Below, piece after piece: positions 21,754-48,447 of a stretch of 64,000 nucleotides of DNA. How positions within the stretch are numbered: position 1 is the first letter of the stretch; each line of letters opens with the position of its first letter. A program made the position numbers and the translations under genes. The DNA is taken from positions 138,205,989 through 138,269,988 of the forward strand of contig CP136068.1 in assembly GCA_032622095.1 (NCBI GenBank), written 5' to 3'. Below the pieces are notes generated by a model, which saw only the letters and a list, made by a program, of their open reading frames with translations, did no database searches and was not told the DNA's origin. Source of the DNA: Siphonodentalium dalli. Taxonomy: Eukaryota > Mollusca > Scaphopoda > Gadilida > Siphonodentaliidae.

Positions 21754-21788
<35 letters not shown>

Positions 21789-21999
21789 TGAAAAATAATC
21801 GCAAAAGGGCAATAACTCCGCCAAGAAACATTGGGCGGAAATCCGGATACCATTATATGTAGTAAACCTTCGATGCCTACATTCGCTAGAGATTTCGCGT
21901 TCCTACTGCAATCAGTTTCTGATTATTTCGAAATAAACGGTAAACGACCTCAGTAGAAAAACAATATACTTCCTTGGTTACACCATGGAAGTATAATAA

Positions 22000-22642
22000 C
22001 CACTTATCTCCCCACATTCATACTTACACTCATAGATATTTGTATACCAAAACTCCATAACATAGTTAGCACCGATGAGGCAACATTATATCACTGCTAT
22101 TGTATCATTTTACAGCTATGAGTGTTTCGACTCGTTTGACATTAGCTCCCCCTCGCGTATGAAACTCTGCTAATTTTATTAATCGATGTTTAGAAATAGC
22201 TCTATACTAATTGCATGTGTGTAGCTGTTCATTATTCTCGAGAACTGGAGTTGGATGCCGAATATGGATATCTCATGGATAGCGGATATTTATCAGAAGA
22301 AAATGTCTGACTGTGACTGGTAGCTTTAGTAACGTTGTTGTTTGAATTGTATAATGTTATATTGATTATAACGTAAGGTTGATAAACTGTGTCATTGTTA
22401 GCATTAACGCGATAATTAGTTATCCAAAAAATATTACGTAATGTTGTTATAACAATGACACCTGTATCTTCACCGAAGATATTCGTTCCGCCCATAGCCT
22501 CTTCAACCTACACGTTCTCTTCCATCAACATTATCAGACCACGCTTTTGACCCATATAAAGCTGGTCTACACACGCCTTCCATAACAAATGTTTACTTAT
22601 GATGTATATAAGAACTGTATAGCTACTAATAAATAGGACACA
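22000..22642. other. End of outer left inverted repeat and leader of the ATPase gene
   Basis: 21994-22030 is the remainder of the inverted repeat. 22370-22470 is a second, rearranged copy of the repeat segment GATAAACTGTGTCATTG through GTTATAACAATGACAC, so the end of this repeat has been scrambled. No gene is seen before the ATPase. Confidence 0.6.
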
Positions 22643-23293
22643 GTGAACAAAAACATATGGTCAACTAACCATAGCGCCATACCATTTGAACCTTGTTCTA
22701 GTATTTGCATCAATGGACCAACTGGTTCTGGTAAGACGAGATGGGTCTACAGATTCCTACAAAATCTTAGTGGAATGTATTCTAGAGATCCACCTAAGAA
22801 AATAATGTACTGTTACGGTATTTATCAAAATTTCTATGATGAAATTGAATCATCAATCGAAAATTTGGTCATGCATCAAGGATTACCTACCCAAACAGAA
22901 ATCGAAGAGTTTGCTGATGGTAAACATAATATGTTAATATTAGACGACTTGATGCATCGTATTATTGACCAAAAAGAGATTGAATTACTATTTACGCAGC
23001 AAACTCATCATCGCTGTCTTTCGGTGCTATTTATTTCACAAAATTTATACGCACAAGGCAAGGCTGCGAGAACTATAGCCTTAAACACAGGATATGGATC
23101 ACAAATTTCCACATTGGGTAGACAATTGTATCCCGGTAAATCTAAAGTACTCATTGATGCATACAAGGATTGTATGAAGAAACCATTTGCGTATCTTATA
23201 ATAGATATGTCCCCTCACACTGAGGATAAATACAGACTACGAACAGACGTATTTCCCAACCAAGACCCTATAATTTACGTACCTACTACGTAA
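22643..23293 (+). pseudogene. Packaging ATPase (FtsK/HerA, A32-like), outer copy, damaged
   Basis: The Walker A GPTGSGKTRWVYRFLQ and Walker B NMLILDDL motifs are intact and place it with the A32-like genome-packaging ATPases of Polintons. Compared with the inner copy, the start region has lost two bases, so its ATG is out of frame and the reading frame has no early ATG. An in-frame 27-bp deletion removes nine residues (LILFKNLRD) in the middle. I therefore call it a pseudogene. It heads the rightward gene block. Confidence 0.85.
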
Positions 23294-23332
23294 TAAGAAG
23301 GGGCAGTATCGGAGCTGAGTCGCGACGATAAA

Positions 23333-23656
23333 ATGAGTCGATTATTACGTAAGGAGTTGAATTTTGTCAGAATATTGACATCAACCCAATCAAGATCTCA
23401 ACGAAACGCATTATTGACATCGATAACTAATAATCAGTTGAAAGTTCTAGTTGAAATTACGGTCAATTTACTACATGAAATTTTAACAGTTACAGTTCAA
23501 CAAAAAGCTAAATTACGGCGATATAAATCATTTTATATATTCTTGGGTGATAAATCTGTGAGCTTGTTGAGGAAAAGAAAAAGTGTGAATAATCACTCAC
23601 CCGCCATTGCTTTGATGTTGAACATCGTTGAACCTAAATTGAAACAGTTTTTGTGA
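23333..23656 (+). CDS. Conserved small Polinton protein, 107 aa (candidate virion/core protein)
   Basis: A basic, helical protein with the pattern QRNALLTSITNNQLKVLVEI ... KLRRYK. I recognise this from short proteins found beside Polinton capsid genes, where it is thought to be a minor virion or core component; its function is not proven. Its stop overlaps the next start (TGATG). It is intact and nearly identical to the inner copy, which supports recent function. Confidence 0.7.
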   Translation: MSRLLRKELNFVRILTSTQSRSQRNALLTSITNNQLKVLVEITVNLLHEILTVTVQQKAKLRRYKSFYIFLGDKSVSLLRKRKSVNNHSPAIALMLNIVEPKLKQFL

Positions 23657-24235
23657 TGGAGTCTGTGAAGAAAACTGTTTTGATCCCGTATGAAAGATAT
23701 ATGATGTACACAGAAAAAAGTGAACACAAAAAAGTTTCATCGGAGCCTAATATTGAACACAGCGACATCTCGGCAAACAATAGTAGCCATTCCGATGAAA
23801 TGAATAAAGAAAAGGACCTGATGAATAATCAGATTGTTAATACAGTTCAAGCGACTGAACATCAGGAGGCAATTCAAAAATCAGGAGTTAACTCTTTACT
23901 TCCCATAAGCGTCCCTGGACGCTTTGCACTATTTTCCCCATAAGCGCCTGTGGACGCCTCGCAGCATATCCCTAGAAGCGCATAAGAGCGCGTTACCAGA
24001 CTTCCCCACAAGCGCCTTAGAGCGCCACACTAGGCCCAGACTGTACTAATGGGTTCGCCCCTATGCTCCCCGCTAGTTTCTAATAGAGACCGCCCGGTTA
24101 TGTCAACTCGTTATTTGCCTATCTAATAACAATAAACGTGGCACCGTGGGCATCGCGCGCGACAGATGCTGTGTTACTTGGGGTTTATATTGGGGACAGA
24201 CATCAGTGGTACCATTCTAAGTATTTACGAACAAT

Positions 24236-24610
24236 ATGGCTGCAAAATTTTCGAAACAGCAAGTGATCGACATGTTAATGGGAGATGATAGCAATTTTAG
24301 CGGAGATTGCAGTTTCTCGTCATCAGAGGATTCAGATGACGATTACTCTCCACCCGCTACCAGCGACAATCTGACCTCCATCGCCGATAGTAGCTTGAAT
24401 ACTAACCCGATTGGCTGGTCATATAAACTTCGAAAGGTATCACTTCCGCCATTTACCCAAATGACAGGGCCAGTTATACCAGATGAATTCGACACTGATA
24501 CAGCAACAGCTTTGGACTATTTCAATTTGATGTTCTCGCCATCGAAGTATGCCGAAATAGCCAGGCATACTAACAACTATGCCAAGTGGAAAATGGAAGA
24601 ATATATATAG
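24236..24610 (+). pseudogene. piggyBac transposase, N-terminal fragment
   Basis: 124 aa: an acidic, Ser/Asp-rich start, then the TGPVIP ... ALDYFNLMFSPSKYAEIARHTNNYA pattern typical of the beginning of the piggyBac (DDE_Tnp_1_7) transposase domain. The frame ends before any catalytic Asp. Family members are about 500-600 aa, so most of the gene is missing. Confidence 0.85.
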
Positions 24611-26480
24611 TGCATGGAAATCATAGAGAACCCAATGTATATCGACTGTATATTGATATACTCAGTTAACATTCAAACTATCCAACTATATTAATTGTTC
24701 ACGCAACACATTTCATGATATAATTTCAAATTTGGTGAATTGCACGACTTGACTCATTTATAATTTCAAACCAAAGAATTGTCGACAACACCTGATCAAA
24801 TGGTCATGCTAATACGGTTGGGCCCTGCTGAATTGATATGATGCTGTTAGGGCAAACTGTTGCTGTTAACAAAAATTACCGTTATTTTATTTTTAATTTG
24901 TCTCAATCGCGGTGTTCCGATAATATGAAAATCCATTATGTGTATCAAATTATAACATTCAAAAACAAATTTATTGCGAAATATTTTTAAAGATACGGCC
25001 GGCGTTCGCGGTGGGTATGGTGTTCAAATATTCATCTATGTCAAAAACCACCATAAACAGAAGGAATAGTAAGAAAAAGACAGACCTTGTTCTTATGCCA
25101 ATCATAAATATGGCATAAACAGTGTTATAGTCAATTTGTTCCCCTTTGTTATGTAAACAAAAGCAAAAAACGTTACGTTTTCTGGCTTTTGTTTAGATCC
25201 GGGTATGGTAAACATAAAGAGCGTTATTTGTTACTGTTTTCCTAATATGGAAATAATAGAGAGCGTTTATATCATTTCTGTATGATTATCCAATATAATT
25301 TCGGCCTGTTATGTAAACAGAATCACAACTTATGTAACACGAGCAGTCTCTTGTTTACGTACACATTTGTACGTCTTGACGACAATATACTATTTATGCG
25401 CTGATTATGTTTGGCATATGTGTGGAACTGTATATATGTTGGCGTTCATTCTGTTGATGGCGATTTGAACAAATATAAATATTTCTGCAACAAATGCCGC
25501 CCGTGACTTTAATAATGGTTGCATTAGTTGAAAATCGACTATAATCAAGATGGCTATTTGCGTCGTTTTAGAAACACCAGCGCAGTTATTATTATATTTT
25601 AATATAGTAATAAACAATCGCAAACATCACCGTTCTGAAAATATATATTTAAAACCTTACTTGAATTTCGTAGCGTGACATCGCGTTATTTTGGCTGAAC
25701 GAAATAGAGGATATATAGCGTTCTGAATTGATACCGGACAAATATATTTATTTATTTTCGCGAGCGACTAGCTGCACTTTTCGCCAGCGGAAATACATTA
25801 TTTCTGGAAGTAGCAACAGAAACTCATTATCTCCAGAAACAATGTACTTTCGGTCACGATAAGTTGGTCAGGAAATTTAGTCATTGGGCCATATCATGAG
25901 ATATTTCTGGTATCCACTTAAAATATTATAGATATCCTCTCTTTAATTGTCTTCTAGATAGGAAGAAAACAGAACACATTTGCTTTGAATTGTTTACAAA
26001 ATACTTTTGGGAGTTGGTGACTTTTTCCAAATAAGACTGGTCTAAATCCGGAGCAAGGATCATTTGTATAAGACATATTTTATTGTCACAATGTGACATT
26101 CGTGTGCATACATTTCAGAGCTGACGAAACGCGCAATACATATACTTTAATATACTATTATTGAACTAATCCCAATGAAAAAGTCAAAGATACTAGCTTG
26201 CCCAGGGCTCTTATACTCAGGTGTCGACTTTTCTCATATTACGACACACGTCCCGGCTTACGCTCATTATCCCCAGTTGGAGCTGTCACTCCAATAGATT
26301 ACCCTCACTGCGTCAACACAGTAACAGGTTTACCACCATTTATTGAGCAACGGGATACTTTCCGACAAGCCAAATACTTATGGGGAAATAGCGTCTGGTA
26401 CTTGATATATACCCGGGAACACACCGTCGGTATCATGTTATAGCTGCAGGGAGATGGCGGGGTGGTTTATACAGCTAGTG
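24611..26480. other. Interior of the piggyBac relic; no further gene recognised
   Basis: AT-rich DNA with two GAGCGTTAT/GAGCGTTTAT motif copies near 25220 and 25262. The open frames at 25405-25623 and 26198-26443 do not match transposase. The second has ordinary amino-acid composition but no recognised motif. Confidence 0.45.
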
Positions 26481-26648
26481 TGGGAACTAAAGAGTTAACA
26501 CATCTAATAATACATCGAAAAAGACACACACTAGGCAAAGAAAAAAGAAAATAAGAGAGATTAAGCGTGAAATATCTAGACCTCCAGGTATAATCGCCGG
26601 TAGGCTGACTAAGATAAAGAAGAAACGTTGGATATCACTGTGAACAAT

Positions 26649-27758
26649 ATGGCCGATTGGAAAGATTATTTGAGTTCAATTTATTTTAATCCGGGTCACC
26701 CCGCATCGTACTCAGGAGCTACAAAGTTGCATCAGACTGTAAAATCTGAAAATAAGCACATAATTTCCAAGCGCGAGATTGTGGCGTGGCTACAAAATCA
26801 TGAAAGTTATTCCCTAACAAAAAGTGTTAGACGAAAATTCCCGAGGTCTCGTGTTATTGTAAACGCTTCTGACAGTCAATGGGATGGAGACCTCATGGAT
26901 ATGAATGATGTTTCCAAAGACAACGACAATTACACGTACGTGTTAATAATGATTGACATTTTTTCTAGGAAGCTATGGTGCGAAGCTATAAAGAGAAAAA
27001 CTGCAATTAATGTGATCAATGCTATGAAACATATATTTGAAGGTGGAAGAACCCCTCGCCTCCTCCGAACGGACCGCGGTTCGGAATTCACAAACAAACG
27101 GGTCAAAAGTTACCTTAAAGGTCTTCATATATCTCAAATTTTTACGCGAAACGAAATGAAAGCCAATTATTCGGAACGGGTCATAAAAACTATAAAGCAG
27201 AAGATTTCACGTTATATGATAAAGCATAATAATGCTAGATATATCGACATTCTACAAGATATTGTGAAAAGTTATAACCATACAATACATCGTTCGTTGG
27301 GTACCACCCCTGACTCAATAACTGTTGAGAATGAAGATGAGTCTCGCCTTGATCAGTGGTTAATAAGACAGAAGGGAGGTGTTAAAAGTAAATTGAAGAA
27401 AAAGTTCAAATACAATGTAAATGATATCGTTAGAATATCACACACCAAAGCAGTTTTTGACCGAGAATATTCTCAGAAATGGACCGGAGAGTTGTTCAAA
27501 GTGACTAAGAAGTTTTACAGACAGAACATACCCTTGTATACATTGACAGATTTCTTGGATGAAACCATTGAGGGCGCTTTCTACGAGTCAGAACTTCAAA
27601 GGGTGCGCGTTGATGACGAAACAGTTTACAGAATAGATAAAATTGTCAAAAAGAGGAAACGAAAGGGTCAAACTGAAGTCATGGTGCACTGGCATTCATG
27701 GCCTGACAAATTTAATTCATGGATTTTAGAGTCCGATGTCGACAGATATCAAAATTAA
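26649..27758 (+). CDS. Polinton integrase (rve family) with C-terminal chromodomain, outer copy
   Basis: 369 aa from ATG 26649; the frame is open further upstream but only with non-ATG codons. The RNase-H-fold core has its first Asp in SQWDGDLMDM, the second in RTDRGSEFTN and the Glu in NYSERVIKT, a DDE triad. An SH3-like region follows (KKFKYNVNDIVRI). The C-terminus (YRIDKIVKKRKRKGQTEVMV then HWHSWPDKFNSWI) is a chromodomain, which may guide insertion to chromatin. It catalyses joining of element ends to host DNA, producing 6-bp duplications like those seen here. The frame is intact, about 97% identical to the inner copy. Confidence 0.95.
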   Translation: MADWKDYLSSIYFNPGHPASYSGATKLHQTVKSENKHIISKREIVAWLQNHESYSLTKSVRRKFPRSRVIVNASDSQWDGDLMDMNDVSKDNDNYTYVLIMIDIFSRKLWCEAIKRKTAINVINAMKHIFEGGRTPRLLRTDRGSEFTNKRVKSYLKGLHISQIFTRNEMKANYSERVIKTIKQKISRYMIKHNNARYIDILQDIVKSYNHTIHRSLGTTPDSITVENEDESRLDQWLIRQKGGVKSKLKKKFKYNVNDIVRISHTKAVFDREYSQKWTGELFKVTKKFYRQNIPLYTLTDFLDETIEGAFYESELQRVRVDDETVYRIDKIVKKRKRKGQTEVMVHWHSWPDKFNSWILESDVDRYQN

Positions 27759-27792
27759 TAAGAGTAAGCTATCCACGGGAACCATTACAATC

Positions 27793-28146
27793 ATGGATAA
27801 TATAACAGATACCTTGACGAATATGTTTCAAACAGAACGCGGTCGTCTACATATGAATCTCCTTAAATGGATAGGAATTACTATTATGGCAATATCTCTG
27901 TCACTACCAGTTATTTTAATTCCAAAGAAGATACCGCGTGAGCCGGTGGACTATGAATTACGTCATACGAATGAGTCACACCCCCATGATTACGAACAAC
28001 ACCCCTGTGGGTTCGTGAAAAAGTGGACAATACGATCAAACATTACGGTAACAGTCTGTAATAATCAAGGGCACATTTATACAGACATTAGGCGAGTTGT
28101 GAATAACACTCCGACGATTATAAGTATTCCGTGTAACCAGTGGTAG
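27793..28146 (+). pseudogene. Membrane-anchored protein with PC4-like tail, outer copy, truncated
   Basis: Starts at ATG 27793. A hydrophobic segment (WIGITIMAISLSLPVILIP) is a single membrane span followed by a Cys-containing region. A TAG replaces a sense codon right after the NQW of the PC4-like tail, removing about 29 C-terminal residues present in the inner copy. The codons after the stop are still recognisable to about 28227. Confidence 0.75.
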
Positions 28147-28238
28147 GATTTCAAGTATATATTCAGTGATGTTGATAAAACTATAAGAGAAGAGATGAAT
28201 ATTGATTCTCTTTTGAAAAAAATTTAGAAACTAGTCAT

Positions 28239-28676
28239 ATGGATAATTATTATCTGTACCTGACTAGCGACGATTCCATAGATAAATATCCAGATAATCG
28301 TCCTCTCGACTTCACAATAGAGTTACCTGGTGTATTAATATTGGAAGGAACGTGGTTATGTTGTTTGAAAGACATAAATATAACTGATCATATAGACACG
28401 GATTTATTATATATTTGCTGGGACATATGCGGAGAATCAATAGCCTGCGACACATCATCCCCCATCCTCAGGGTTATAAAGATAGACACACGTGATACGG
28501 GTGATTGGCGGAGTTTTGAGGACTCATTCTACATAAACGTAAGGCAGGATAAACTTCAGCGTCTCAGGATTTTTATAAGAGGCGATAAACTTTCTAAAAT
28601 AAATGCAGAAAAAAGAGTGACTTGTACACTACATCTGAAGAAACATGTCGATGACGTATATTCCAACCGATATTGA
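28239..28676 (+). CDS. Candidate minor capsid/structural protein, 145 aa, outer copy
   Basis: The N-terminus (YYLYLTSDDSIDKYPDNRP ... FTIELPGVLILEGTW) matches a pattern I associate with Polinton structural proteins that open with a strand-rich domain: YPxN, then LPxxxxLxGxW. It lies just upstream of the capsid protein and overlaps the next gene by 32 bp. A penton or minor capsid role is inferred from position and strand-rich sequence, not proven. Confidence 0.55.
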   Translation: MDNYYLYLTSDDSIDKYPDNRPLDFTIELPGVLILEGTWLCCLKDINITDHIDTDLLYICWDICGESIACDTSSPILRVIKIDTRDTGDWRSFEDSFYINVRQDKLQRLRIFIRGDKLSKINAEKRVTCTLHLKKHVDDVYSNRY

Positions 28677-28968
28677 AAAGTGGAGAAAACATTTCAGGGA
28701 CATGATTAATGGGAAGTTAAGGCCAGATAATGAGGGTCGCTACTTTATTGACAGAACTCAAAATAGTGATAGTGAAGAAGACGTTCTAAAACCACATATT
28801 AACGTAGTGACACCCGTCGCGCAAGCGATTGAAATGGCCAAAGCCGAAGTTGCAGAAAATAAGTTGACACAAGCACGTAAGGCGTCCAAGAAAACCAATA
28901 AGAGAGTGTTACCTAGCGGTTTGGCTCATAATCCTAAGAAAGTGAAAACTTTTTTCGATAAACCATGA
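28645..28968 (+). CDS. Small basic-tailed structural protein, 107 aa, outer copy
   Basis: Unknown function. It has an acidic middle (DSEEDV), an Ala/Glu-rich helix, and a basic C-terminus (KASKKTNKRVLP ... NPKKVKTFF). It overlaps the capsid gene by four bases (ATGA). Size, charge pattern and position suggest a capsid-associated or maturation peptide. The inner copy is frameshifted, so this is the intact version. Confidence 0.6.
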   Translation: MSMTYIPTDIEKWRKHFRDMINGKLRPDNEGRYFIDRTQNSDSEEDVLKPHINVVTPVAQAIEMAKAEVAENKLTQARKASKKTNKRVLPSGLAHNPKKVKTFFDKP

Positions 28969-30227
28969 ATGAATACAGAGAGTACCATACCGATAAATTG
29001 GCATTATTTGAATCGCCGGCGGTTGACAGCGGAATACAATCGACAGAATGGATAAACTACAGACCCGTGAATCAGCTGACAGACACTGCAGCTTTAGAGT
29101 TCAATATTCCCGCCATGGCCACAACCTACATGGACCTCAAACGCACATTGCTACTTCTCAAACTCAAAATAACCAAGCAAGATGGTTCGGCTCTAACCGT
29201 TAATGACGATGTGGGTCTGATAAATGCACCCCTACATTCAATATTTTCGCAGGTCGATTTGAATATACAGCAAGTTCCCGTGAGTCAAGTCGGGCCGAAT
29301 TATCCATACAAAGCATATTTCGATGTACTCTTAGAAACTGAACGTAAGGAACAGCTACATGGACAAGCGTTCGAAAAGGACACGGCAGGTGGTATGGACC
29401 TGGCAGATTCGAAAAGCGGGAACTCTGGCCTGTATTATAGGTCCAAAACAACCCGTACTAGTCAAATAATGGATATTATGGGATTAATTCAGCTTGACTT
29501 CTTCCAACAGGACAAATTACTACTAAATGGTCTCCCGCTCACGTTAAAATTCTGGCAGACGAGAGATGTTTTTAGACTGATGTATGCGGGAACCACTGAG
29601 ACATACAAGTTGAAAATACAGGAAGCTAATTTGAGACTAGCGACTGTGAAAGTTAACCCGGCTGTATTACTCAGTCATACTGAGTCACTCAAGAAAAGCA
29701 ATGCGTGTTATCCTTTTTCAAAATCTATCATAAAGACGTATACAGTGTCAAAAGGTGCATTCAGTTTGGGAGAAGATAATCTATTTCAAGGAGACGTACC
29801 CAGTAGCTGTATTATTGGCTTAGTATCATCAAAGGCTGAAAGCGGTTCACGCGATAAGAACCCGTTCAACTTTGCGACTTTTGGATGCAACTTCGTCGCA
29901 TTTTACGTCAACGGGCAGTCTATGCTCGCCCAAGCACTACAACCGAACTTTACCAGTAAGGAATATGTAGAAGCTTACAATACGATAATAAAAGATGTGA
30001 AACGAAAAGCCGTTCATATTACTTATGAGGATTATGCGAAAGGTTATTGCATATATCGGATAAACCCGCAAGGAATTAATCACGATAGAGTCATACCTCT
30101 GAAAGGTCACACACGCCTTGAGATTAAATTCTCATCGGCTTTGAAAGACAATTGTACTGTAATTGTTTATGCCAAATTTCCTGCCGCTCTCAAAGTTGAC
30201 GAGAGTCGTAAAGTTTGCATTGAATAA
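28965..30227 (+). CDS. Major capsid protein (double jelly-roll), outer copy
   Basis: 420 aa. The pattern TTYMDLKRTLLLLKLKI, then LHSIFSQVDL, YPYKAYFDVLL, NSGLYYR, LLLNGLPLTLKFW and KNPFNFATFGCNF is the Polinton capsid (PY) protein family, predicted to form the double jelly-roll hexons of an icosahedral particle. Its stop overlaps the protease start (TAATG), indicating coordinated expression. Intact and about 97% identical to the inner copy; retention of a full frame implies selection on virion formation until recently. Confidence 0.92.
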   Translation: MNEYREYHTDKLALFESPAVDSGIQSTEWINYRPVNQLTDTAALEFNIPAMATTYMDLKRTLLLLKLKITKQDGSALTVNDDVGLINAPLHSIFSQVDLNIQQVPVSQVGPNYPYKAYFDVLLETERKEQLHGQAFEKDTAGGMDLADSKSGNSGLYYRSKTTRTSQIMDIMGLIQLDFFQQDKLLLNGLPLTLKFWQTRDVFRLMYAGTTETYKLKIQEANLRLATVKVNPAVLLSHTESLKKSNACYPFSKSIIKTYTVSKGAFSLGEDNLFQGDVPSSCIIGLVSSKAESGSRDKNPFNFATFGCNFVAFYVNGQSMLAQALQPNFTSKEYVEAYNTIIKDVKRKAVHITYEDYAKGYCIYRINPQGINHDRVIPLKGHTRLEIKFSSALKDNCTVIVYAKFPAALKVDESRKVCIE

Positions 30228-30673
30228 TGAATACACGCGGACTCATGAGGGCGATAAATAGTTTCACAAACCATAATGAGATAGATGTTTGTCCCATAGA
30301 CAAATTACCCCTTTATATCCAATATCCCCGGATGTATATAGTTAACACGGACGAGAGTAGCCAACCTGGACGCCACTGGATATTGATGATATTCCATGAA
30401 CATAAACTATCAGAGTTCTTCGACCCTATGGGGTTAAAGCCCGAGTGTTACAACGGACGATTTAAACACGTGTTGTTATTGAATGGACCTCGTTACGAGT
30501 GTAATGATTACAGATTACAGGGTTCTAATATATGCGGTCCCTATTGCATATACTTTGCATTCTATAAACTGTGTGGATACAGTCTAGAAAATATAATGAG
30601 GCGTTTCGGTGCCAATAATTATATGTATAATGATTTAATTATTAAGGATTTTATGTTGAAATATATTCTGTAA
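30227..30673 (+). CDS. Adenain-like cysteine protease, outer copy
   Basis: 148 aa. The catalytic His is in GRHWILM, the acidic residue in SEFFDPMG, the Gln in YRLQGSN and the nucleophilic Cys in NICGPYC, in the adenovirus-protease (C5/C48-like) order. It presumably matures virion proteins. It is shorter than adenovirus protease (about 200 aa) but within the Polinton range. It is the last gene of the rightward block and is intact. Confidence 0.92.
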   Translation: MNTRGLMRAINSFTNHNEIDVCPIDKLPLYIQYPRMYIVNTDESSQPGRHWILMIFHEHKLSEFFDPMGLKPECYNGRFKHVLLLNGPRYECNDYRLQGSNICGPYCIYFAFYKLCGYSLENIMRRFGANNYMYNDLIIKDFMLKYIL

Positions 30674-30971
30674 ACGCTCTTCATTAGCTACAACGAGAGA
30701 AACACTCTTTAAATTATATTATGTATATAAATAAAAAATTGTAAATACAATCATTTATCGTTCTTATATTATCATATGTATGACTGGGAAAATAGAGATA
30801 TATATATATATATATGACTGGGTTGAGGGGGTTGTGGAGGGAGGCGGGGATGAGGGGTATTAGGTCTGTTGCCAAAAAAAAAAAAATCTTTTTTTTTGGT
30901 CAAAAGCCAAAAAACAAAGGTATGTGAGCCCTCCCCGAATGAAAAAAAAGATAATCGATACATATATATAT
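30674..30971. promoter_or_regulatory. Convergent 3' region between protease and TBP genes
   Basis: Directly after the protease stop is AACGCTCTTCATT (inverse AATGAAGAGCGTT) and then ACACTCTTTAAAT, variants of the recurrent motif. AATAAA-type signals near 30729 serve the protease. An (AT)n run at 30797-30814 and A- and T-rich tracts near 30880 follow. The inner copy (48973-49323) preserves the same arrangement. This is likely the shared transcription-termination region. Confidence 0.55.
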
Positions 30972-31496
30972 TTATTCTGAAAGTAACTCAAGTTCACATA
31001 TAGTAGGATATACAATATTTAACATCTGCTTTTCACTTTTAATGCCCGTAATCACACTTTTTCCATTATGAAAGCATGTAAAATGTATTTTCTCACGTCT
31101 GAACATTGCCGCAGGGAACAGCTCTAATTCGTAAGAACATTCCATAAGTTTCACTAAAACGTTTAAGTCAAGTTTTCCATTTAACTGACAAAATGCAGAC
31201 ATTGTCAACATTTTTATGGAATTTAATCTCACTCGCCAACCACATTTTTGAATATGTCGAGCGTATCGACGCAGTCGAACACATGTCTGTTTGACATTAT
31301 CAGAACGCCCGTTAACAACGATTTTACCCGTGTTAAACACGAGGCAACATCCACCGAATTTAGAATGTTTCCATACAACTCCGCTAAACTTTTTGGAATT
31401 GTATTCAATGTTCGAACAACCGAGTGTCAAATCCCTTAGATTAATAGAACAGTTCAAATCTGCAGAACATACGACATTAGTTATTCGTAGCATCAT
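30972..31496 (-). CDS. TATA-binding protein (TBP) homologue, outer copy
   Basis: 174 aa, covering the whole two-repeat TBP core. Repeat 1: ITNVVCSADLNCSINLRDL, IEYNSKKFSGVV, LVFNTGKIVVNG, YARHIQKCGW. Repeat 2: LNSIKMLTMSAFCQLNG, CSYELELFPAAMF, FHNGKSVITGIKSE, NIVYP. These follow eukaryotic TBP in order (EYNPKRF, IFSSGKMVCTGA, YARVVQKLGF, YEPELFPGLIYR, IFVSGKVVLTGA). It should bind promoter DNA and recruit a transcription machinery. It lacks the long N-terminal tail of host TBP. It lies 11 bp after the PC4 gene in the same direction. The frame is intact. TBP is not a standard Polinton gene to my knowledge. Confidence 0.9.
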   Translation of the reverse strand: MMLRITNVVCSADLNCSINLRDLTLGCSNIEYNSKKFSGVVWKHSKFGGCCLVFNTGKIVVNGRSDNVKQTCVRLRRYARHIQKCGWRVRLNSIKMLTMSAFCQLNGKLDLNVLVKLMECSYELELFPAAMFRREKIHFTCFHNGKSVITGIKSEKQMLNIVYPTICELELLSE

Positions 31497-31507
31497 AGGA
31501 GTAATGT

Positions 31508-32119
31508 TTAGATCAATGTCTGCATCCGGTTAATCAAACATGTTCTATCACCGTTGGGGCAGCATTCCATACATCTTAAAGATCCTTCCTGGTTTTGGTG
31601 ATCGTCGGTCAAATAGCACTGCACAGTCTGATCAATTTCAGGAATATTAGCACACAGGACGAATATAGCTCCAGCTAGTTCTTCAAATTGGTCGAATGTC
31701 AGAGATATTCCGTATTTGGTTGCACACAAATCATCTGAATGTTCAGGCAGCCAATACCTGCGAATGTCAACACGCTGGATGCCGCTCTTTATAGTAATGA
31801 AGAAATTCCCACCGATATGACGTCTCATGAATACATCGGATTCCCCGGTACGATAACTGACCACTTCTTGATGTATATCTGATAGGTAAGATTTCAACTC
31901 TTTGAATCTCCTTAGATTTAATGTTATTCCAGATTTTGTCGGAAATTGTTGGCCTGCAGAACCTTCACCGCACTCTCTTATGTGTATATACAAGTTTCCC
32001 AGGAATCTACCGTCGAATAGGAAAATGTCATTTCCTAACGGGACTAAGCATTGTGGATGGAACGCTCTCTCATTCGTTTCAGTCCGTTGGTTTCCTTCAA
32101 CATCGGGTTGATCAGTCAT
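31508..32119 (-). CDS. Tandem PC4-domain protein, outer copy 1
   Basis: 203 aa. Domain 1 (about residues 27-85): DGRFLGNLYIHIRE ... PTKSGITLN ... FKELKSYLSDI. Domain 2 (about 97-160): IGGNFFITI ... VDIRRYW ... KYGISLTFDQFEEL. Both follow PC4/p15/SUB1 (FKGKVLIDIREYW ... [22 protein letters not shown]). PC4 binds single-stranded DNA and acts as a general coactivator, so replication/ssDNA protection or promoter opening are both possible. A C-terminal CxxC...C segment (CMECCPNGDRTC) could bind a metal. It is the downstream copy of a tandem duplication and lies just ahead of TBP. Confidence 0.88.
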   Translation of the reverse strand: MTDQPDVEGNQRTETNERAFHPQCLVPLGNDIFLFDGRFLGNLYIHIRECGEGSAGQQFPTKSGITLNLRRFKELKSYLSDIHQEVVSYRTGESDVFMRRHIGGNFFITIKSGIQRVDIRRYWLPEHSDDLCATKYGISLTFDQFEELAGAIFVLCANIPEIDQTVQCYLTDDHQNQEGSLRCMECCPNGDRTCLINRMQTLI

Positions 32120-32900
32120 TTTTTATTTGAACCTGGAAAATAAGAAAACAAACATTACTTATCAGTTACACATCGAGAGTACAAAGTCCGAAAGGAGTCC
32201 GCCCGCACTGAGGGGTTAATCAAACATGTTCTATCACCGTTGGGGCAGCATTCCATACATCTTAAAGATCCTTCCTGGTTTTGGTGATCGTCGGTCAAAT
32301 AGCACTGCACAGTCTGATCAATTTCAGGAATATTAGCACACAGGACGAATATAGCTCCAGCTAGTTCTTCAAATTGGTCGAATGTCAGAGATATTCCGTA
32401 TTTGGTTGCACACAAATCATCTGAATGTTCAGGCAGCCAATACCTGCGAATGTCAACACGCGGGATGCCGCTCTTTATAGTAATGAAGAAATTCCCACCG
32501 ATATGACGTCTCATGAATACATCGGATTCCCCGGTACGATAACTGACCACTTCTTGATGTATATCTGATAGGTAAGATTTCAACTCTTTGAATCTCCTTA
32601 GATTTAATGTTATTCCAGATTTTGTCGGAAATTTTTGGCCTGCAGAACCTTCACCGCACTCTCTTATGTGTATATACAAGTTTCCCAGGAATCTACCGTC
32701 GAATAGGAAAATGTCATTTCCTAACGGGACTAAGCATTGTGGATGGAACGCTCTCTCGTTCGTTTCAGTCCGTTGGTTTCCTTCAACATCGGGTTGATCA
32801 GTCATTTTTTATTTGAACCTGGAAAATAAGAAAACAAACATTACTTATCAGTTACACATCGAGAGTACAAAGTCCGAAAGGAGTCCGCCCGCACTGAGGG
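31530..32900. repeat. 686-bp tandem duplication covering the PC4 gene
   Basis: 31530-32215 repeats at 32216-32900 with only a handful of differences. It includes the coding region plus about 100 bp upstream ending GGAGTCCGCCCGCACTGAGG at the edge of the GC-rich array. The inner element has one copy, so the duplication is specific to the outer element and recent. Confidence 0.92.
32155..32805 (-). CDS. Tandem PC4-domain protein, outer copy 2 (altered C-terminus)
   Basis: 216 aa. The first about 197 residues are almost identical to the neighbouring copy and keep both PC4 domains. The duplication breakpoint replaces the last residues by about 19 others (ending YSRCVTDK) read from what was upstream DNA. 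It is a potentially functional variant with a new tail. Confidence 0.8.
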   Translation of the reverse strand: MTDQPDVEGNQRTETNERAFHPQCLVPLGNDIFLFDGRFLGNLYIHIRECGEGSAGQKFPTKSGITLNLRRFKELKSYLSDIHQEVVSYRTGESDVFMRRHIGGNFFITIKSGIPRVDIRRYWLPEHSDDLCATKYGISLTFDQFEELAGAIFVLCANIPEIDQTVQCYLTDDHQNQEGSLRCMECCPNGDRTCLINPSVRADSFRTLYSRCVTDK

Positions 32901-33085
32901 GTCCGCCCGCCCGCCCTGGGGGGTCCGCCCGCCCCGCCTTGGGGGTCCGCCCGCCCGCCCTGGGGGGTCCGCCCGCCAGCCCTGGGGGTCCGCCCGCCCG
33001 CCCTGGGGTCCGCCCGCCCCACTCCGCCCTGGGGGTCCGCCCTGGGGGGTCCGCCCGCCCGCCCCGCCCTGGGGGTCCGCCCCCT
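32896..33085. repeat. GC-rich minisatellite between divergent genes, outer copy
   Basis: Units of about 20 bp (GGGGGTCCGCCCGCCCGCCCT and shorter forms) in an otherwise AT-rich element. It lies exactly between the PC4 gene (leftward) and the 186-aa gene (rightward), so it overlaps both promoters. G-runs could form quadruplexes. Long open frames through it are artefacts. The inner element has its own differing array. Confidence 0.9.
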
Positions 33086-33137
33086 CTCTCGCATACTCAA
33101 TAAGAATAAGAAAATTGAGTCATTGAGTCAGTTCATT

Positions 33138-33698
33138 ATGGAGAGAATACTACCCGCAGAAATACTGGAGAAAATATACAATCAGCTAATTGACATGTCA
33201 ACTATAAATCCAGAAATAAAAAAACAACTACTACACAATTGGTTTATAAGAGAAATTAAAATAATACTGAAGAATATAGATGAAGGATATTTTCCTGTAC
33301 AGCGATTGAAATCTTTGATTGCGAGGTCTGAATTTGAAACTGATTTCTTACAGGATATATTGAATCAAATGTTTTCAAATCGCTGGGTATTTAGAGGCGT
33401 TCCTAAAAACAAAATACATGACATTCGTGAACTTATTGGAGATAACTTTGTGAGATTTGCAGAATACCGAGACTGGGTTTTCAATCAGAGAAGTTTTGAA
33501 GAAGTGACAATAATTCACGGATATATCATTCTCCGTGAACCGTGTACACTGTTCACGATTGAACAAATACTTAACAGAGACGTGATTTTGGATTACATTT
33601 CTACAAGTAAATCGAAATATATTTCAGAATTAGAGAATGAATTAATCTGGTCATTCGGAATAATCTGGAATTATGGTGACTCTTCGTTGAGAAAATAA
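33138..33698 (+). CDS. 186-aa Polinton protein of unknown function, outer copy
   Basis: Start chosen at ATG 33138, since the inner copy supports no earlier ATG. The N-terminus ILPAEILEKIYNQLI resembles the first helix of an F-box (LPxEILxKIxxxL), followed by INPEIKKQLLHNWF. The rest (for example RWVFRGVPKNKIHDIRELIG, YRDWVFNQRSFEEVTII) matches nothing I recognise. If an F-box, it could recruit a host ubiquitin ligase; this is speculative. The frame is intact in both elements with few differences. It converges with the polymerase gene. Confidence 0.7.
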   Translation: MERILPAEILEKIYNQLIDMSTINPEIKKQLLHNWFIREIKIILKNIDEGYFPVQRLKSLIARSEFETDFLQDILNQMFSNRWVFRGVPKNKIHDIRELIGDNFVRFAEYRDWVFNQRSFEEVTIIHGYIILREPCTLFTIEQILNRDVILDYISTSKSKYISELENELIWSFGIIWNYGDSSLRK

Positions 33699-33953
33699 AA
33701 AAAAACATATTTGTTTTTGGTTTAAGACCGATATAATATTATAAGTATAAAGAGCGTTAAGACTGTACTGGAGGTAACTGCAATGATAGAAAAAAACAGC
33801 TAATTCATAACTAACCTGTATAGAATGTTTCACACACACAGTATAGGACTAACGAATTTGTAAATGTGAACTGGATCGGGTAGCATTTTATAGATCGAAA
33901 AAATGGACACCGTGGATAAATTGACCAATGACTGCCATCGGTTTATAGTAATA

Positions 33954-34003
33954 CGTGTTCAGACACGCTCGATGTTATCTAACATCGAACGTGTCTGAAC
34001 ACG
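33954..34003. repeat. 50-bp near-perfect hairpin between convergent genes
   Basis: CGTGTTCAGACACG, then TCGATGTTA, a 2-base centre, TAACATCGA and CGTGTCTGAACACG, with one mismatched pair. The same structure is at 46570-46617 in the inner element. It lies between the 3' ends of the 186-aa and polymerase genes. Possible roles are a terminator, a processing site or an origin-like structure. Confidence 0.8.
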
Positions 34004-34109
34004 CCTTAGTATAATCCGATAGCTGCCATCGATCGAATGTTTACACTCTCATTACAACCTTGATCAAATATAGACGATTAAATTATATAATATATATTAC
34101 GTACCTCGT

Positions 34110-35055
34110 TCAATATCCATATGGCAGAGTATCCATGTTATCCAATCGTCTGCGTTTTGTATAAACAACTCGGTACTGCTTCTCCTCAGATCTGTTATAT
34201 AATTTTCTTTTTCCTTTGGACCTGCATATTTTTCGAGGATTGGTTGTGGTGATGGGCACTGCACTTCCGGATTCTAACAGATCTTTAATCGTGTTGAAAT
34301 TGATGAACTGTGAATTTTCAAAGTTCAAAGAGAAACCCCGAACTTTACACGTCTCTTTAGCTTTATTGGTTCTATAAGCGTAATTCTTGGGTCCTCCAGA
34401 AACAAATTCCTCGATGTATTCATCCGGGTCTAGCTCACTAGTCAACTGTCCCAAATAGTCACCCAGTGGGGGGTTAATTTGATCCTCGATGCTGCTGAAT
34501 ACACAACTATCCGTGTCGTAATATAACACTCTTCTGTCCAAGGAATGAATAACTTCATATAACATTAATCGCGCGTGACACGTCGTGAACGTGGCCAAAT
34601 ATATGTTATTCGATGATCCACACGGTGCACAGTCATTTCGATAAGTCCACTCCATCTGAAGAATGTCATCGGTTATGACATGAAAATTTTCCATTTGTTT
34701 CATTGGATTTGAAATGAATTGGAATAGATTGTCTTGTTCCGATTCATGGAAATATTCGGTCTGTTTGAAATTCTGGTTTTGGCCAAATTTTCCCCAAAAC
34801 GAATTGAGCATCAGCTTGGATATTTGACGTAATCCTGGATTTTTTTCGATGCTTTCTCTGTCCAGCAATATACCTTCGTTGTCTTTATACTCTGTGATGT
34901 ATTTGTCCATGTCTTCGGTAGATTTTATCCAATCCGGAGGACCGCTAGCTTGCTGCTTGAATTTTAAGAATGTGTTTATATATTCAGTGAATAATCCATT
35001 TTGTTGTCCATAGTCTGACGTTTCGGTCCAATGGTATATCTCATATATATTTTGA
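34110..35055 (-). pseudogene. DNA polymerase B, outer copy: exon 2, 3' part
   Basis: Encodes the C-terminal palm and thumb. Polymerase motif B is LMLNSFWGKFGQ, motif C is YYDTDSCVF and the KxRG-type element is CKVRGFSLNFE. Separated from the upstream part by a 547-bp insertion with a 9-bp duplication (ATATTTTGA). Ends at TGA 34110. Confidence 0.92.
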
Positions 35056-35602
35056 AGACCTCTGTCTGTATGTATGTTTGTTTGTTTGTTTGTTTGTCTG
35101 TCTGTCTGTCTGTCATTTATACAAATCTACGATTCTCGACCGATCGGGACGAAACTTGGTACGTGTGTGTAGTTTGACCAGGCGGTGAACGTTGTCGTAT
35201 TGGCGAGTCCGTGCGGCGCCAGCTTCGCGCATGCGCAGACGAGATCTCGGAAACGGGTGGAGCTATCGACTTGAAATTTGCTATGTGAATGTATCTTGCC
35301 CCGGATACGAATTTTATCGGGTCGCCGAGCCCGTGCGACACCAGCTTCGCGCATGCGCAGACGAGATCTCGGAAACGGGTGGAGCTATCGACTTGAAATT
35401 TGCTATGTGAATGTATCTTGCCCCGGATACGAATTTTATCGGGTCGCCGAGCCCGTGCGACGCCAGCTTCGCGCATGCGCAGACCAGATCTCGGAAACGG
35501 GTAGAGCTATCGACTTGAAATCGTCGGGCTGGGTAGAGCTATCGACTTGAAATTTGGTTTTTGAATAGCCCGGACAACGTCGGGCTCATCGGCTAGTTTC
35601 AG
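35056..35602 (-). mobile_element. 547-bp interspersed repeat inserted in the polymerase gene
   Basis: ATATTTTGA stands at both junctions (35047-35055 and 35603-35611). On the minus strand it starts near CTAGCCGATGAGCCCGACG, contains three 122-bp units (AGCTTCGCGCATGCGCAGAC at 35221, 35343 and 35465 on the plus strand) and ends in (CAGA)n(CAAA)n. The inner gene is uninterrupted here. Same architecture as 18731-19145. The simple-repeat tail with a 9-bp duplication suggests retrotransposition, but Helentron-like is not excluded. Confidence 0.75.
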
Positions 35603-35611
35603 ATATTTTGA

Positions 35612-37496
35612 GAATCTTGTATCCTACTTTGATAGCTGTCTCCAGTTCAGGAATACACCAAACACCAGTAATAGCTCTCTGTTGGCACGTACACGTGCAA
35701 GGTCGTTGATTTTCATTATCAGCACAAGTCCTACACAGTGGAAACTTCAGTTTACCGTTGGATCGATACGGTAATACGGGGTGATAGAGTCCATTAGGTG
35801 GTAAAATCTTGACTTGAGCTATTCCGAAGTAATCCTTAAGTTCGGTAATGTCATCGCCCAAAATGATTTTCGGGTGTCCAATCGGGTATCGAGCGTATTT
35901 GAGCACATTTGGATAGAGCGACGTGAAGTCAAAATAGTGTATTTTCTCACCAACGTCAGCTTTGTAGTGTAATTTAGTTGCAATCGTTCTGCCGCCGAAG
36001 AAACTGTCTCTAGGCTCTAGTCGTTCAACAATGTCCAAACTAGTAATGAAATCACGAAGCTCCGGATTAGTCTTTCGGGCAGCGACGAACTCGTGTTCCC
36101 AAATGCACGCATATTTCAGGCCTCGACTTTCTATATACTTCTTCTTTTTCTGTGTCAGTCCGTATAATTCATTAGGTGTCTGGTTGGTTATCGGATTCTT
36201 GACTACGTCTCTCTCATGACTCAGACAAAGTTCACATCCATGGAATTGACATCCGTGAAATTCGAATGCCGTGTTTAACTCTTCACAATATCCATCCAAT
36301 CTGTACTTTGCACCATCGAGTTTCTTTTCACGGCCGTTCAAAGCGTGAGTTATGTGGATTTTATCTTTGAACATCATCCATTCCAGCCATTGAATCGAAC
36401 TTTTGCTGTATTGATCTTTATATGATGTCTTGGGGACGCGAGCTATCTGTGATTTGAGAAATTCTTTCTCTCGAATTTGTACGTCGCGTTCATCTTCAAG
36501 TTTTGTTTCTTGAACCCATTCACCTTTGTATAAAATCGACAAAGTTCCATCTTTACATTTAGCTGGAAGCCACGTTTTCCCTTCGGTACTTAGGCGCACT
36601 CTCCATTCCTCGTCGACGAATTTCGTTCTGAATATCCCCATACATACCGATGCGATTGTAACGTACTGGAATGGATCAACGGCACCAACCAGTTTGAACT
36701 TCATATCACCAGAAAACTCGTCAATTACGGGTTGTATATTTCCAGTCGCGTTCATGATGTGGGTTCTGAATTTTATGCAAGCTTGTCTCAAAATATTGAC
36801 ATCACTACGACAATAATCCGATAATTCTTTCTTGAAGATGAAAACTGCATTTGTTTGAGCCGCGTGCCATTTCGTGAAGTCTTTTCGTTCAGCCACACCC
36901 ATATAATCAGCGCCGTAATATTTGGCATCCGGATAGGGTCCTTCATAATTCTGGTTGGCTGGTTTATTGAAAAAGTGTGGGAACCATCCTTTTTTCTCGC
37001 CATCAAGACCGAATGTTTTTGGTAACAGTGCCAGCTTCATTGGTAGAAAGCTGAGACTGTCCAGTACTTTGATATGAATATCTTTTTCCACGTATAGGTA
37101 CATCAATTTGGATCCATTATATATAACTTTGGGTCTCAATGATTGATCAATGAGATATTCCATGAGAAAATATCCATCGTAACCCTTGAAGTTGTGAGCC
37201 AGTGCTATGAATCCCTTATGTTGTTCAGAGAATAACCATTTTCCAAACTGTTCACCGGTATCAGGACCGCTAAATATAACCTCACGGAGTCCACATGTAT
37301 CCGGACATAAATTTCGGTCATTCTTCTTCTTCTTCTTCTTCGCATCACTGTCGTTACAAGCATCACATAGAGGACCGCAATTTCGACAGTTCGGTTTCGC
37401 TTCCAACGATTCATGCATGCATTCGTAGCAAGCTGTTTGGGCGACGAGGAAGTTGGGTGTATGCTGAACTTTTCCGCACTATGTTTTTAAAGAGTT
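35612..37496 (-). pseudogene. DNA polymerase B, outer copy: exon 2, 5' part
   Basis: Carries exonuclease motif II (LAHNFKGYDGYFLMEYL), motif III (YCRSDVNILRQA), an inserted segment with FEFHGCQFHGCELC typical of Polinton polymerases, and polymerase motif A (YFDFTSLYPNVL). A TAG codon near 37479 (TGG in the inner copy) stops translation six codons into the exon. With the two insertions, this polymerase is dead. Confidence 0.92.
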
Positions 37497-39041
37497 CTGA
37501 AAAGTAATAATTGAACGTTTTAACCTCTAGCTTTATTGATAATAAAAACAAAATAAACGTCTAAACTTTGTTCAGATAATTATTTAAAAAAAAAATGTTT
37601 TGGTATAGGTTCAACGTTAATAAAGAGCGTTGACGTATTACTATTGTTTGTGGGTTGACCCTAAAAATTACTCGTTCCAATCTACGTGTCAATATTAAAA
37701 ATGTATGATGATCAGAACATCGACATATAGCCTGTATCATTGACGATTCAAGCACTCGGATACCAAGTTCAATAAAGTTAAAAAATTATATATTATGTTA
37801 GTTTACCATATAACAATTACAAAGCTCTTTTCACATAAAATATGTTACACATTTTTTCAATGTGTCAAGAATTTAAAGTTAATTACTCGGTTTAACATCT
37901 GTGACTCAGTTGAATTTTAATATTGAGACCCTTAACTTTGGTCGAATTCAAGTATGTAATTGTTATATGGTAATCTCACACGCAGATAAAGTAACAGCTA
38001 AAGAGCGTTCCTCGATAATCTAATATAATTTTAAAATAAAAGAGTGTCTCTACTTATGCGCGCCGATAATAAAGAGCGTTAACGTATTAATATTGTTTGT
38101 GTATTGACCCTAAAATTACTCGTTCCAATCTACGTGTCAATATTAAAAATGTATGATGATCAGACCATCGACATATAGCCTGTATCGTTGACGATTCAAG
38201 CACTCGGATATCAAGTTCAATAAAGTTAAAACATTATATATTATGTTAGTTTACTATATAACAATTACAAAGCTCTTTTCACATAAAATATGTTACACAT
38301 TTTTTCAATGTGTCAAGAATTAAAAGTTAATTACTCGGTTTAACATCTGTGACTCAGTTGAATTTTAATATTGAGACCCTTAACTTTGGTCGAATTCAAG
38401 TATGTAATTGTTATATGGTAATCTCACACGCAGATAAAGTAACAGCTAAAGAGCGTTCCTCGATAATCTAATATAATTTTAAAATAAAAGAGTGTCTCTA
38501 CTTATGCGCGCCGATAATAAAGAGCGTTGACGTATTAATATTGTTTGTGTAATGACCCTAAAATTACTCGTTCCAATCTATGTGTCAATATTAAAATGCA
38601 TGATGATCAGACCATCGACATATAGCCTGTATCGTTGACGATTCAAGCACTCGGATATCAAGTTCAATAAAGTTAAAACATTATATATTATGTTAGTTTA
38701 CTATATAACAATTACAAAGCTCTTTTCACATAAAATATGTTACACATTTTTTCAATGTGTCAAGAATTAAAAGTTAATTACTCGGTTTAACATCTGTGAC
38801 TCAGTTGAATTTTAATATTGAGACCCTTAACATTGGTCGAATTCAAGTATGTAATTGTTATATGGTAATCTCACACGCAGATAAAGTAACAGCTAAAGAG
38901 CGTTCCTCGATAATCTAATATAATTTTAAAAATAAAAGAGCGTCTCTTCTTATACGTGGTGATAATAAAGAGCGTTACGTTATCGTGATTTCGACTGTAA
39001 TGTGTTACATATATATATATTACAATTAGGTTAAGACTCAC
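37497..39041 (-). other. Polymerase intron, outer copy, expanded to 1545 bp
   Basis: The donor CAG|GTGAGT (at 39041) and acceptor TTATTACTTTTCAG| (at 37497) are strong consensus sites and phase 0. The intron is 654 bp in the inner element. The difference is due to three tandem 448-bp units. Confidence 0.85.
37619..38963. repeat. Three 448/449-bp tandem units in the polymerase intron
   Basis: Units start AATAAAGAGCGTT at 37619, 38068 and 38516; a final motif at 38964 closes the array. Each holds a TTACACATTTTTTCAATGTG hairpin, an inverted pair (CCATATAACAATTAC ... GTAATTGTTATATGG) and a second GCTAAAGAGCGTTC motif. Units are nearly identical, so amplification was recent or is kept homogeneous. 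The inner intron has one unit. Confidence 0.93.
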
Positions 39042-39875
39042 CTGACACCTAGCACATTTCTTGCATATATGATCCTCTTTACAGTCCTGGCAATCCTTTG
39101 TATGTAAAGGTGAATATCCTTCGGAACATTCCAGTATATCGTGTTGAAATGTTTCAAAGTCAAAGAAACAGAATTTAGCTCTTTCATCGTCAGTAACAGG
39201 AGGTATGGCCCTTACATAACATTCGTGTCCTCCCATTGTGTATTTGTCACACGATCTACAAAATGTTTCTCCGCACACGTGTTGATTCGGACGTCTTTTC
39301 CGTCTCTCCATGACTTTTTTACAGTCCAAACATTTCCACCATTTTTCGCAAGGAGCTGTCGTTTCTTTCGAAGCTTGATTAATAGGTTTTGCTTTATGAC
39401 GCACGAAACATTGATGAGACATACACGTCATGTTACAATCTGAACAATGTTCTTTGTTTTCACTTTGTTCACATTTATCACTTTTACACACGAAACAGGT
39501 GAGTTCACAATAATGCTTTCCTTTGGCTGCATAATGTTTTAAGCAATTCACACAGAAATATGCTGCGCTAAAGAATCCCGTTATGGATTGTATAGCGTGG
39601 AAATGTTCATTATCAGTCAGATATAAATATATCACGGGTCTTTCTGTACCGCCTGTAGGCGCGCTGGTAATGAATTTATTACCCAGTCTAGCACTAACGA
39701 CTAGTATTGTCAAATTCAGAGTGTCCTCGAATGCTTTTAGGTCTGCTAAACTGGCTGGTCTGTCTGTTGGTACACCTGCGATGACACTAATTGCTTTGGC
39801 TAATTTTCCTTTCTCAGTGCGTGTTTTGGCCGTCATATGTTTGTAATAATGGTGCGGTACTTTTCTGTATTCCAC
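39042..39875 (-). pseudogene. DNA polymerase B, outer copy: exon 1, 3' part
   Basis: Contains a Cys/His-rich region (FCVNCLKHY, CFVCKSDKCEQ, HCSDCNMTC), probably zinc-binding, and exonuclease motif I (CFFDFETFQ) intact, unlike the inner copy. Separated from the 5' part of the exon (56181-57092) by the inner Polinton at the GATGAG target site. Confidence 0.93.
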
Positions 39876-39881
39876 GATGAG

Positions 39882-41028: not shown

Positions 41029-41187
41029 ATTGGGGGAACACATGGTTACGTAATAATAACCAGTTAAACAACTAATGTTGCCTCGTCCGTAAAAAACCAA
41101 TTATCGGTCTATTCATTCTTACGTTCATATATATAATCTTATATAATGTTACGTCATCCGTGCTTGCATATGTTCGGGATTTTATGG

Positions 41188-41201
41188 TATAAAAATATAT
41201 A
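41188..41201 (+). promoter_or_regulatory. TATA-like promoter element of the polymerase gene
   Basis: TATAAAAATATATA lies 67-80 bp upstream of the polymerase ATG at 41268. It is conserved at 57161-57174 ahead of the outer copy. It is a plausible target for host TBP or for the element's own TBP homologue. Confidence 0.5.
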
Positions 41202-41267
41202 TGACTAAGCTGTATTCCATATAGTGAATAGACACCGGTGTAATCACTTCTCAGGACTTCTCGAAAA

Positions 41268-46459: not shown

Positions 46460-46569
46460 ACGAGGTATGTAATATATATAGTATATAATTTAATCGTCTA
46501 TATTTGATCAAGGTTGTAATGAGAGTGTAAACATTCGATCGATGGTAGCTATCGGATTATACTAAGGCT

Positions 46570-47441: not shown

Positions 47442-47490
47442 AATGAACTGACTCAATGACTCAATTTTCTTATTCTTATTGAGTATGCGA

Positions 47491-48436: not shown

Positions 48437-48447
48437 ACATAACTCCC

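Follow-up and report, generated by a model that had tools for sequence, protein, structure and literature searches.

Two nested Polintons and their genes

The gene studied here, which encodes a TATA-binding protein (TBP), lies in a Polinton, present as two nested copies in the window, i.e. the whole stretch of 64,000 nucleotides analysed. The Polinton hallmarks found in the window are long terminal inverted repeats with 6-bp target duplications, a family B DNA polymerase (PolB, PF03175) and a retrovirus-type integrase (PF00665). The features of the two copies are the following:

16591..58393, outer Polinton, terminal inverted repeats, 6-bp target duplication TTTGTA
39882..56180, inner Polinton (16,299 bp), terminal inverted repeats, 6-bp target duplication GATGAG
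26628..27758, plus, retrovirus-type integrase with chromodomain, outer Polinton (PF00665, E 3.5e-14; PF00385, E 8.3e-07)
28965..30227, plus, capsid candidate, outer Polinton (97% identity to the inner copy)
30227..30673, plus, adenovirus-type protease candidate, outer Polinton (PF00770, E 0.0024, below the Pfam cut-off)
30972..31496, minus, TBP, outer Polinton (174 aa; PF00352, E 1.9e-29)
31508..32119, minus, PC4-like transcription coactivator, outer Polinton (PF02229, E 1.3e-13)
32155..32805, minus, second (duplicated) PC4-like gene, outer Polinton (PF02229, E 1.1e-13)
35586..37418, minus, PolB, outer Polinton, first part (frame broken, rest at 34110-34910; PF03175, E 4.3e-39 and 2e-08)
43733..46459, plus, PolB, inner Polinton (PF03175, E 1.2e-51)
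47825..48436, plus, PC4-like gene, inner Polinton (11 nt before TBP; used as query)
48448..48972, plus, TBP, inner Polinton (174 aa; PF00352, E 1.2e-32)
49324..49770, minus, protease candidate, inner Polinton (PF00770, E 0.0039, below the Pfam cut-off)
49770..51032, minus, major capsid protein candidate, inner Polinton (420 aa; 52 relatives)
52244..53374, minus, integrase, inner Polinton (inverted copy of 26628-27758)
54091..54756, minus, packaging ATPase candidate, inner Polinton (weak A32/AAA matches below the cut-offs; TATAAGA at -50)

The two copies are inverted relative to each other and share ca. 93-99% identity along their paired stretches, with 96% around TBP. The insertion point of the inner Polinton lies within one gene of the outer one, which is split by it and probably by other inserts too. 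At its own borders, the outer Polinton is apparently inserted into a 35-bp minisatellite (16515-16590 and 58394-58630), and positions 10902-13869 are filled by an extended array of divergent repeats that recur every 42 bp. PC4 is doubled in the outer Polinton (31508-32805), a 300-nt stretch being 100% identical between both units. A 380-aa frame opposite PC4 (46881-48023, minus strand), for which no Pfam match was obtained, differs in length and identity among copies. Concerning the 420-aa candidate for the double jelly-roll major capsid protein, four of its 52 relatives are named as bivalve proteins (Saccostrea, Pinctada, Argopecten and Pecten); it has no Pfam match, and a profile search against PDB chains gave none up to E 5. 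No RNA polymerase gene was recognised in a Pfam search of the frames of the 16-kb Polinton.

The outer TBP frame is open exactly from 30972 to 31496 on the minus strand, the plus strand being full of stops there. PF00352 matches the two window TBPs with 101.7 and 112 bits (cut-off 22.9), in two stretches each. Both 174-aa frames are open, and the claim of the earlier note on this DNA, made from the letters alone, that both nested Polintons carry an intact two-repeat TBP was thus confirmed, as was the motif order that it quoted (EYNSKKF, FNTGKIVVNG, YARHIQKCGW, ELFPAAMF and HNGKSVITG). Two of the checks that it had proposed pointed the same way: both copies match PF00352 with the E-values listed above, and the fold obtained by structure prediction is the two-repeat TBP saddle. 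All four intercalating phenylalanines are present in the window TBP, and its best PDB sequence match is 4wzs_D (E 3.8e-22). Chance similarity to TBP was rejected on the Pfam, PDB and predicted-structure matches. The same note had described the other genes as decayed, which holds for the outer PolB, split into 34110-34910 and 35586-37418, and for the one outer gene cut by the inner Polinton, but not for the capsid candidate, protease and integrase, whose frames are open in both copies.

The window TBP is ca. 30-31% identical to cellular TBP, vs. 22% for the best viral protein in BFVD (TM 0.78), where the named matches are mostly giant-virus proteins. Four scans of viral contigs, conducted with TBP as a single protein, with two TBP alignments and with PolB, gave no relatives. 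As for the scan of genome contigs with TBP, it returned only three archaeal TBPs, and the DNA context of the mobile TBPs is for this reason limited to the window's own genome.

Mobile TBPs in the genome and their descent

The 2.23-Gb assembly (nine contigs) from which the window comes was searched with TBP, 150 of 600 candidates being scored. The top match, partial and exon-like, is located on contig C6 and belongs to the host TBP gene: it is 82% identical to yeast over 61 residues and only 35% identical to the window TBP, and the 9.9 kb around it contain no match to the other Polinton queries. C6 aside, all but two of the matches listed are without a stop in the matched stretch. A TBP profile search gave 315 related proteins; among the 120 listed are one Pinctada imbricata protein and several labelled as bivalve symbionts, the latter being probably host DNA. 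In a tree built from 40 of the 125 proteins found, together with 8 rows from elements and 8 cellular ones (56 rows in all), the 48 mobile TBPs form one clade apart from the cellular TBPs, with a support of 100/100 and a stem of 1.66 changes per site. TLF/TRF2 is nearest to the mobile clade, a placement that is unreliable and was set aside because the TLF branch is long.

A recent chance pick-up of the host TBP would agree with the window TBP being closer to cellular TBPs than to BFVD viral proteins. Given a host exon that is classical and yet resembles the window TBP so little, and many lineages joined in one clade on so long a stem, a topology that contradicts this origin, we regard it as extremely improbable. 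TBP as a lone host gene was likewise rejected, from the tree, the separate host TBP on C6 and the position of the mobile genes inside elements.

That position was followed in 19 loci with mobile copies of the window's family (L013-L031), picked by best TBP score. TBP lies in the element and is adjoined by PC4 in all 19, and the protease comes after TBP in 18, an arrangement that the earlier note had proposed to look for in other Polintons; in L027, no element part was found beyond TBP. L018 (1833-8495) shows three tandem units of ca. 2.77 kb each, with TBP, PC4 and the 380-aa-type frame. None of the 22 full-length TBP copies compared has an indel or a stop, a count biased towards intact copies by this way of choosing the loci. 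Within the window's family, the pN/pS of TBP is 0.57, a value that is uninformative as a sequence-based measure of constraint.

Locus L017 contains another TBP, which shares 39.5% identity with the first, beside a different integrase. In this locus, a second-lineage Polinton with its own TBP (7958-9901) apparently sits within an element of the window's family. The genome was also searched with the second TBP (151 matches listed of 432 candidates, 150 scored). Among the matches listed, 57 full-length copies are at least 91% identical to it, followed by groups at 60-65%, 51-55% and 41-45%, and then by the window's family at 40-41%. TBP-bearing virus-like elements reach well over a hundred copies in this one genome, and with so many mobile TBP copies the notion of a single-copy oddity was rejected.

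Seven further loci represent five lineages, namely L032, L033, L036, L035 with L037 (one family) and L034 with L038 (one lineage, with TBPs 68% identical). The TBPs of these five lineages are 38-68% identical mutually and 35-44% to the window TBP. In all seven loci, TBP is situated just upstream of the integrase, and penton-like, capsid-candidate and ATPase genes lie within the same stretch. TBP is therefore carried in the six lineages examined (the window's family and the five others) and is not a lone host insertion, the alternative that the earlier note had named; PC4 was seen within the fetched stretches of two of them, the window's family and L035/L037. Judged by sequence and predicted structure, the window gene is a genuine TATA-binding protein and a standing part of a Polinton lineage.

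Between lineages, the pN of TBP is 0.21-0.43 vs. a pS of 0.59-0.87, synonymous change being mostly saturated; on these sequence comparisons, TBP is conserved between lineages even where over half of its residues are different. The suggestion of use until recently, previously drawn from the intact frames, is weak when based on these alone (cf. the pN/pS within the family) but is strengthened by the conservation between lineages. Among the 150 ATPase matches listed, 103 are at 56% or more, and at least 89 of these 103 have a listed TBP within 8 kb, at distances that are nearly all lineage-specific (about 4.1-4.2, 4.0-4.5 and 2.3-2.7 kb), whereas 14 have none within 8 kb among the TBP matches listed.

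The frames of TBP and the integrase share 8 nt in four of the seven further loci (L032, L033, L034 and L036). Such an arrangement would fit TBP being a targeting or replication factor, which would bind TBP-associated factors or the element ends and direct the integrase, as TFIIIB does in the case of some yeast Ty elements. In the window's family, however, several genes separate TBP from the integrase, and the two insertions of the window, in another Polinton's gene and in the 35-bp minisatellite, are not visibly at a promoter. This role would also leave the promoter motifs presented below unexplained, and we consider it improbable.

Two other genes of these lineages may be mentioned. PolB was not found in L040; L039 and L041 have a likely intron in one PolB and no clear PolB start. 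In L041 (1-461), an intron bordered by GTAAGT and TTTTAG apparently splits the PolB of lineage F2, which points to nuclear expression. One Polinton lineage carries an inhibitor-of-apoptosis protein (L034, 5557-6180, minus strand, with a relative at 3804-4420 of L038), composed of BIR (E 7.6e-16) and RING domains.

DNA-contacting residues and promoter motifs

Residues were counted in an alignment of 133 rows, following the yeast numbering. The intercalating phenylalanines are kept in most rows (F99 in 113, F116 in 124, F190 in 127 and F207 in 90, the last being replaced by H in 35), and so are N69 (131), V71 (126) and T215 (127), as well as the E-x-E-L stirrup (E186 in 114, E188 in 128 and L189 in 114), the TFIIB contact of TBP. 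Five other positions are altered throughout the family: T124 is N in 103 rows, N159 is T in 130 and S in 3, V161 is S in 129 and T in 4, V203 is H in 72, N in 35 and T in 23 (130 in all), and L205 is T in 58, C in 36 and S in 23 (117 in all). Positions 69, 124, 159 and 215 make the central base contacts of TBP, and this canonical set (N69, T124, N159 and T215) is incomplete here, T124 and N159 being replaced. Positions 194, 203 and 205 are reportedly those changed in a laboratory altered-specificity TBP mutant. From its sequence and predicted fold, the mobile protein is a TBP by descent and fold, with non-canonical base contacts.

TFIIB contacts that are conserved beside DNA contacts that are changed could also indicate a decoy, which would sequester host TFIIB or further partners of TBP and shut down host transcription. 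For a pure decoy, the DNA-bending phenylalanines would be needless, yet they are mostly conserved (113, 124, 127 and 90 of 133), and the sorting of promoters described hereafter would have no explanation; such a function seems very unlikely.

Promoter motifs were analysed in six loci of the other lineages, L037 being omitted as a duplicate. TATAAA precedes TBP in all six, at -36 to -44 (flank identity 0.30-0.31; the L033 distance is -43 from the second of two start codons and -40 from the first). TATAAGG precedes the ATPase in five out of five loci with an intact start, at -34 to -36 (flank identity 0.26-0.29), the F4a copies (L035 and L037) falling outside this count since the 5' end of their ATPase is broken. 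Some capsid-candidate and core genes also have TATAAGG in the 90 nt ahead of them, as does the inhibitor-of-apoptosis (BIR) gene in L034, at -36. In none of the six loci does TATAAGG occur over the same 90 nt before the penton-like gene or the integrase, and the capsid candidate lacks it there in L032 and L036. TATAAA is also present at -11 before the L034 ATPase.

As a whole, the six loci contain 36 TATAAGG vs. 9.6 expected under a first-order model. Ten of them fall 20-90 nt upstream of a curated start, which ranks first of 210 letter permutations (the mean of the others being 0.30 hits), and only 1 of 36 does so in antisense; several of the other 26 are inside coding sequence, at corresponding places of related ATPase genes. 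The two motifs are split by gene class: the seven TATAAA stand before TBP or PC4, and the ten TATAAGG before ATPase, capsid candidate, core or BIR genes (7:0 against 0:10; Fisher p 5e-5, a test which, like the nulls, assumes independence, while the counts are not independent because the lineages are related). The test covers hits 20-90 nt before curated starts in the six loci, non-ATG starts being dropped; it leaves out two TATAAA before integrase genes, both within the TBP coding sequence, and keeps the TATAAGG hits before the core gene, which lie inside the preceding gene.

Twelve ATPase upstream regions, chosen for spread, were fetched afterwards as a test. TATAAGG was found at -34 to -43 in seven of them, and only at -82 or -83 in three (one subfamily); it is missing in L047 and in L051, a member of the window's family that has TATAAG. 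When the upstream regions were grouped by similar flanks, six of the eight non-window groups had TATAAGG at -34 to -43. The box distances of L043 and L044 are a few bases off, the match having not begun at ATG.

The existence of two kinds of TATA boxes suggests a two-step programme of gene expression run by the element itself, and these two classes of promoters support the earlier proposal that TBP lets the element select its promoters; TBP might also compete with host initiation, the other effect put forward in that note. The scheme fits less well in the window's own family: the ATPase is preceded by TATAAGA (at -50), the core gene by TATAAGAGG, the penton-like gene by TATAAGAG and the capsid candidate by ATAAGAGG. 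TBP, which comes 11 nt behind PC4, has no TATAAA in its 90 upstream nt.

In the usual numbering, TATAAGAG would be the G(-26) variant of structure 1qn5. According to the title of that structure, ordinary TBP was crystallised on the G(-26) TATA variant; TATAAGG thus need not require a special TBP, and the host TBP may bind such sites. A real Polinton TBP could then coexist with a host TBP that reads both boxes, TATAAGG being a weak TATA box for other genes and the element TBP only adding initiation capacity or freeing the element from host repressors of TBP. The conserved TFIIB-contact residues are compatible with this reading. The family-wide change at positions 124, 159, 161, 203 and 205 is hard to explain with unchanged specificity, however, and among the curated starts of the six loci each motif keeps to its own class of genes, which makes this reading, in our opinion, rather unlikely.

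A possible early-to-late switch and its relation to known systems

We consider it probable that the element TBP is built into an early-to-late switch ("early" and "late" being assigned from gene roles), with host TFIID acting on TATAAA and the element TBP on TATAAGG. When the element is switched on, host TFIID would read the TATAAA of the regulatory genes, i.e. TBP and, in one lineage, PC4. The element TBP, which retains the stirrup for TFIIB and most of the phenylalanines that bend DNA, would for that reason be able to recruit host TFIIB and RNA polymerase II, and its altered concave face would favour the TATAAGG of the packaging gene and of some virion genes. PC4, where present, would be a helper of the element TBP. 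The whole scheme would amount to an early-to-late switch on a private TBP, comparable in its working to the late system of herpesviruses, except that the TBP would be complete and compact. More tentatively, and as a serious possibility only, the element may have a core-promoter code of its own, in which a compact altered-specificity TBP reads TATAAGG and splits an early programme (host TBP, TATAAA) from a late one on host RNA polymerase II, without a viral RNA polymerase or a large viral pre-initiation complex.

Should the element TBP indeed read TATAAGG, it would be a natural altered-specificity TBP, a kind of protein so far known only from laboratory selection. If true, the switch would be a pared-down equivalent of the one used for herpesvirus late genes and would show by what means a DNA element of 16 kb can time its genes in the nucleus of an animal. 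TATAAGG before the packaging gene would then provide a sequence tag for recognising such elements, and the system would bear on how larger DNA viruses gained their own transcription machinery.

Compared with the cellular TBP core (PF00352), the mobile TBP has no N-terminal extension, is ca. 31% identical, has a shorter loop before the last strands and shows replacements of T124, N159, V161, V203 and L205. Animal TLF/TRF2 is likewise a divergent TBP, its long branch making its nearness to the mobile clade unreliable. The elements share with Polintons/Mavericks the PolB, the rve integrase with chromodomain, the long inverted repeats and the 6-bp duplications, and differ from them in carrying TBP (six lineages) and PC4 (two lineages). 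The earlier note had placed TBP outside the established Polinton gene set, and the matches listed from the open-licence literature agree, as they contain no TBP or other general transcription factor inside a Polinton, although a report may exist elsewhere. A TBP in a Polinton is not described in the excerpts on polintons and TATA-binding protein from PMC10675990, PMC7786948 and PMC10132985, nor in those from PMC12220804, PMC11071308 and PMC7221094.

The KSHV protein ORF24 is a viral TBP mimic that reads the variant box TATT of late genes and, like the mobile TBPs, has a more polar DNA face and kept phenylalanines; it differs by forming a complex with five further viral proteins, in which it acts, and by a C-terminal DNA-binding part (excerpts of PMC12529657). 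The Polinton TBP, in contrast, is a bare 174-aa core that is clearly recognised by the TBP profile. At the other end of the size range, many giant-virus-type genomes have their own RNA polymerase. According to PMC10132985 and PMC5825884, giant viruses, asfarviruses and mirusviruses likewise encode TBP-fold proteins. TBP is given for 59% of the mirusviruses in the former, and sporadic TBPs are reported in integrated elements of putative mirusvirus origin in an excerpt of PMC10675990. All three virus groups have large genomes, whereas the TBP described here belongs to an element of 16 kb.
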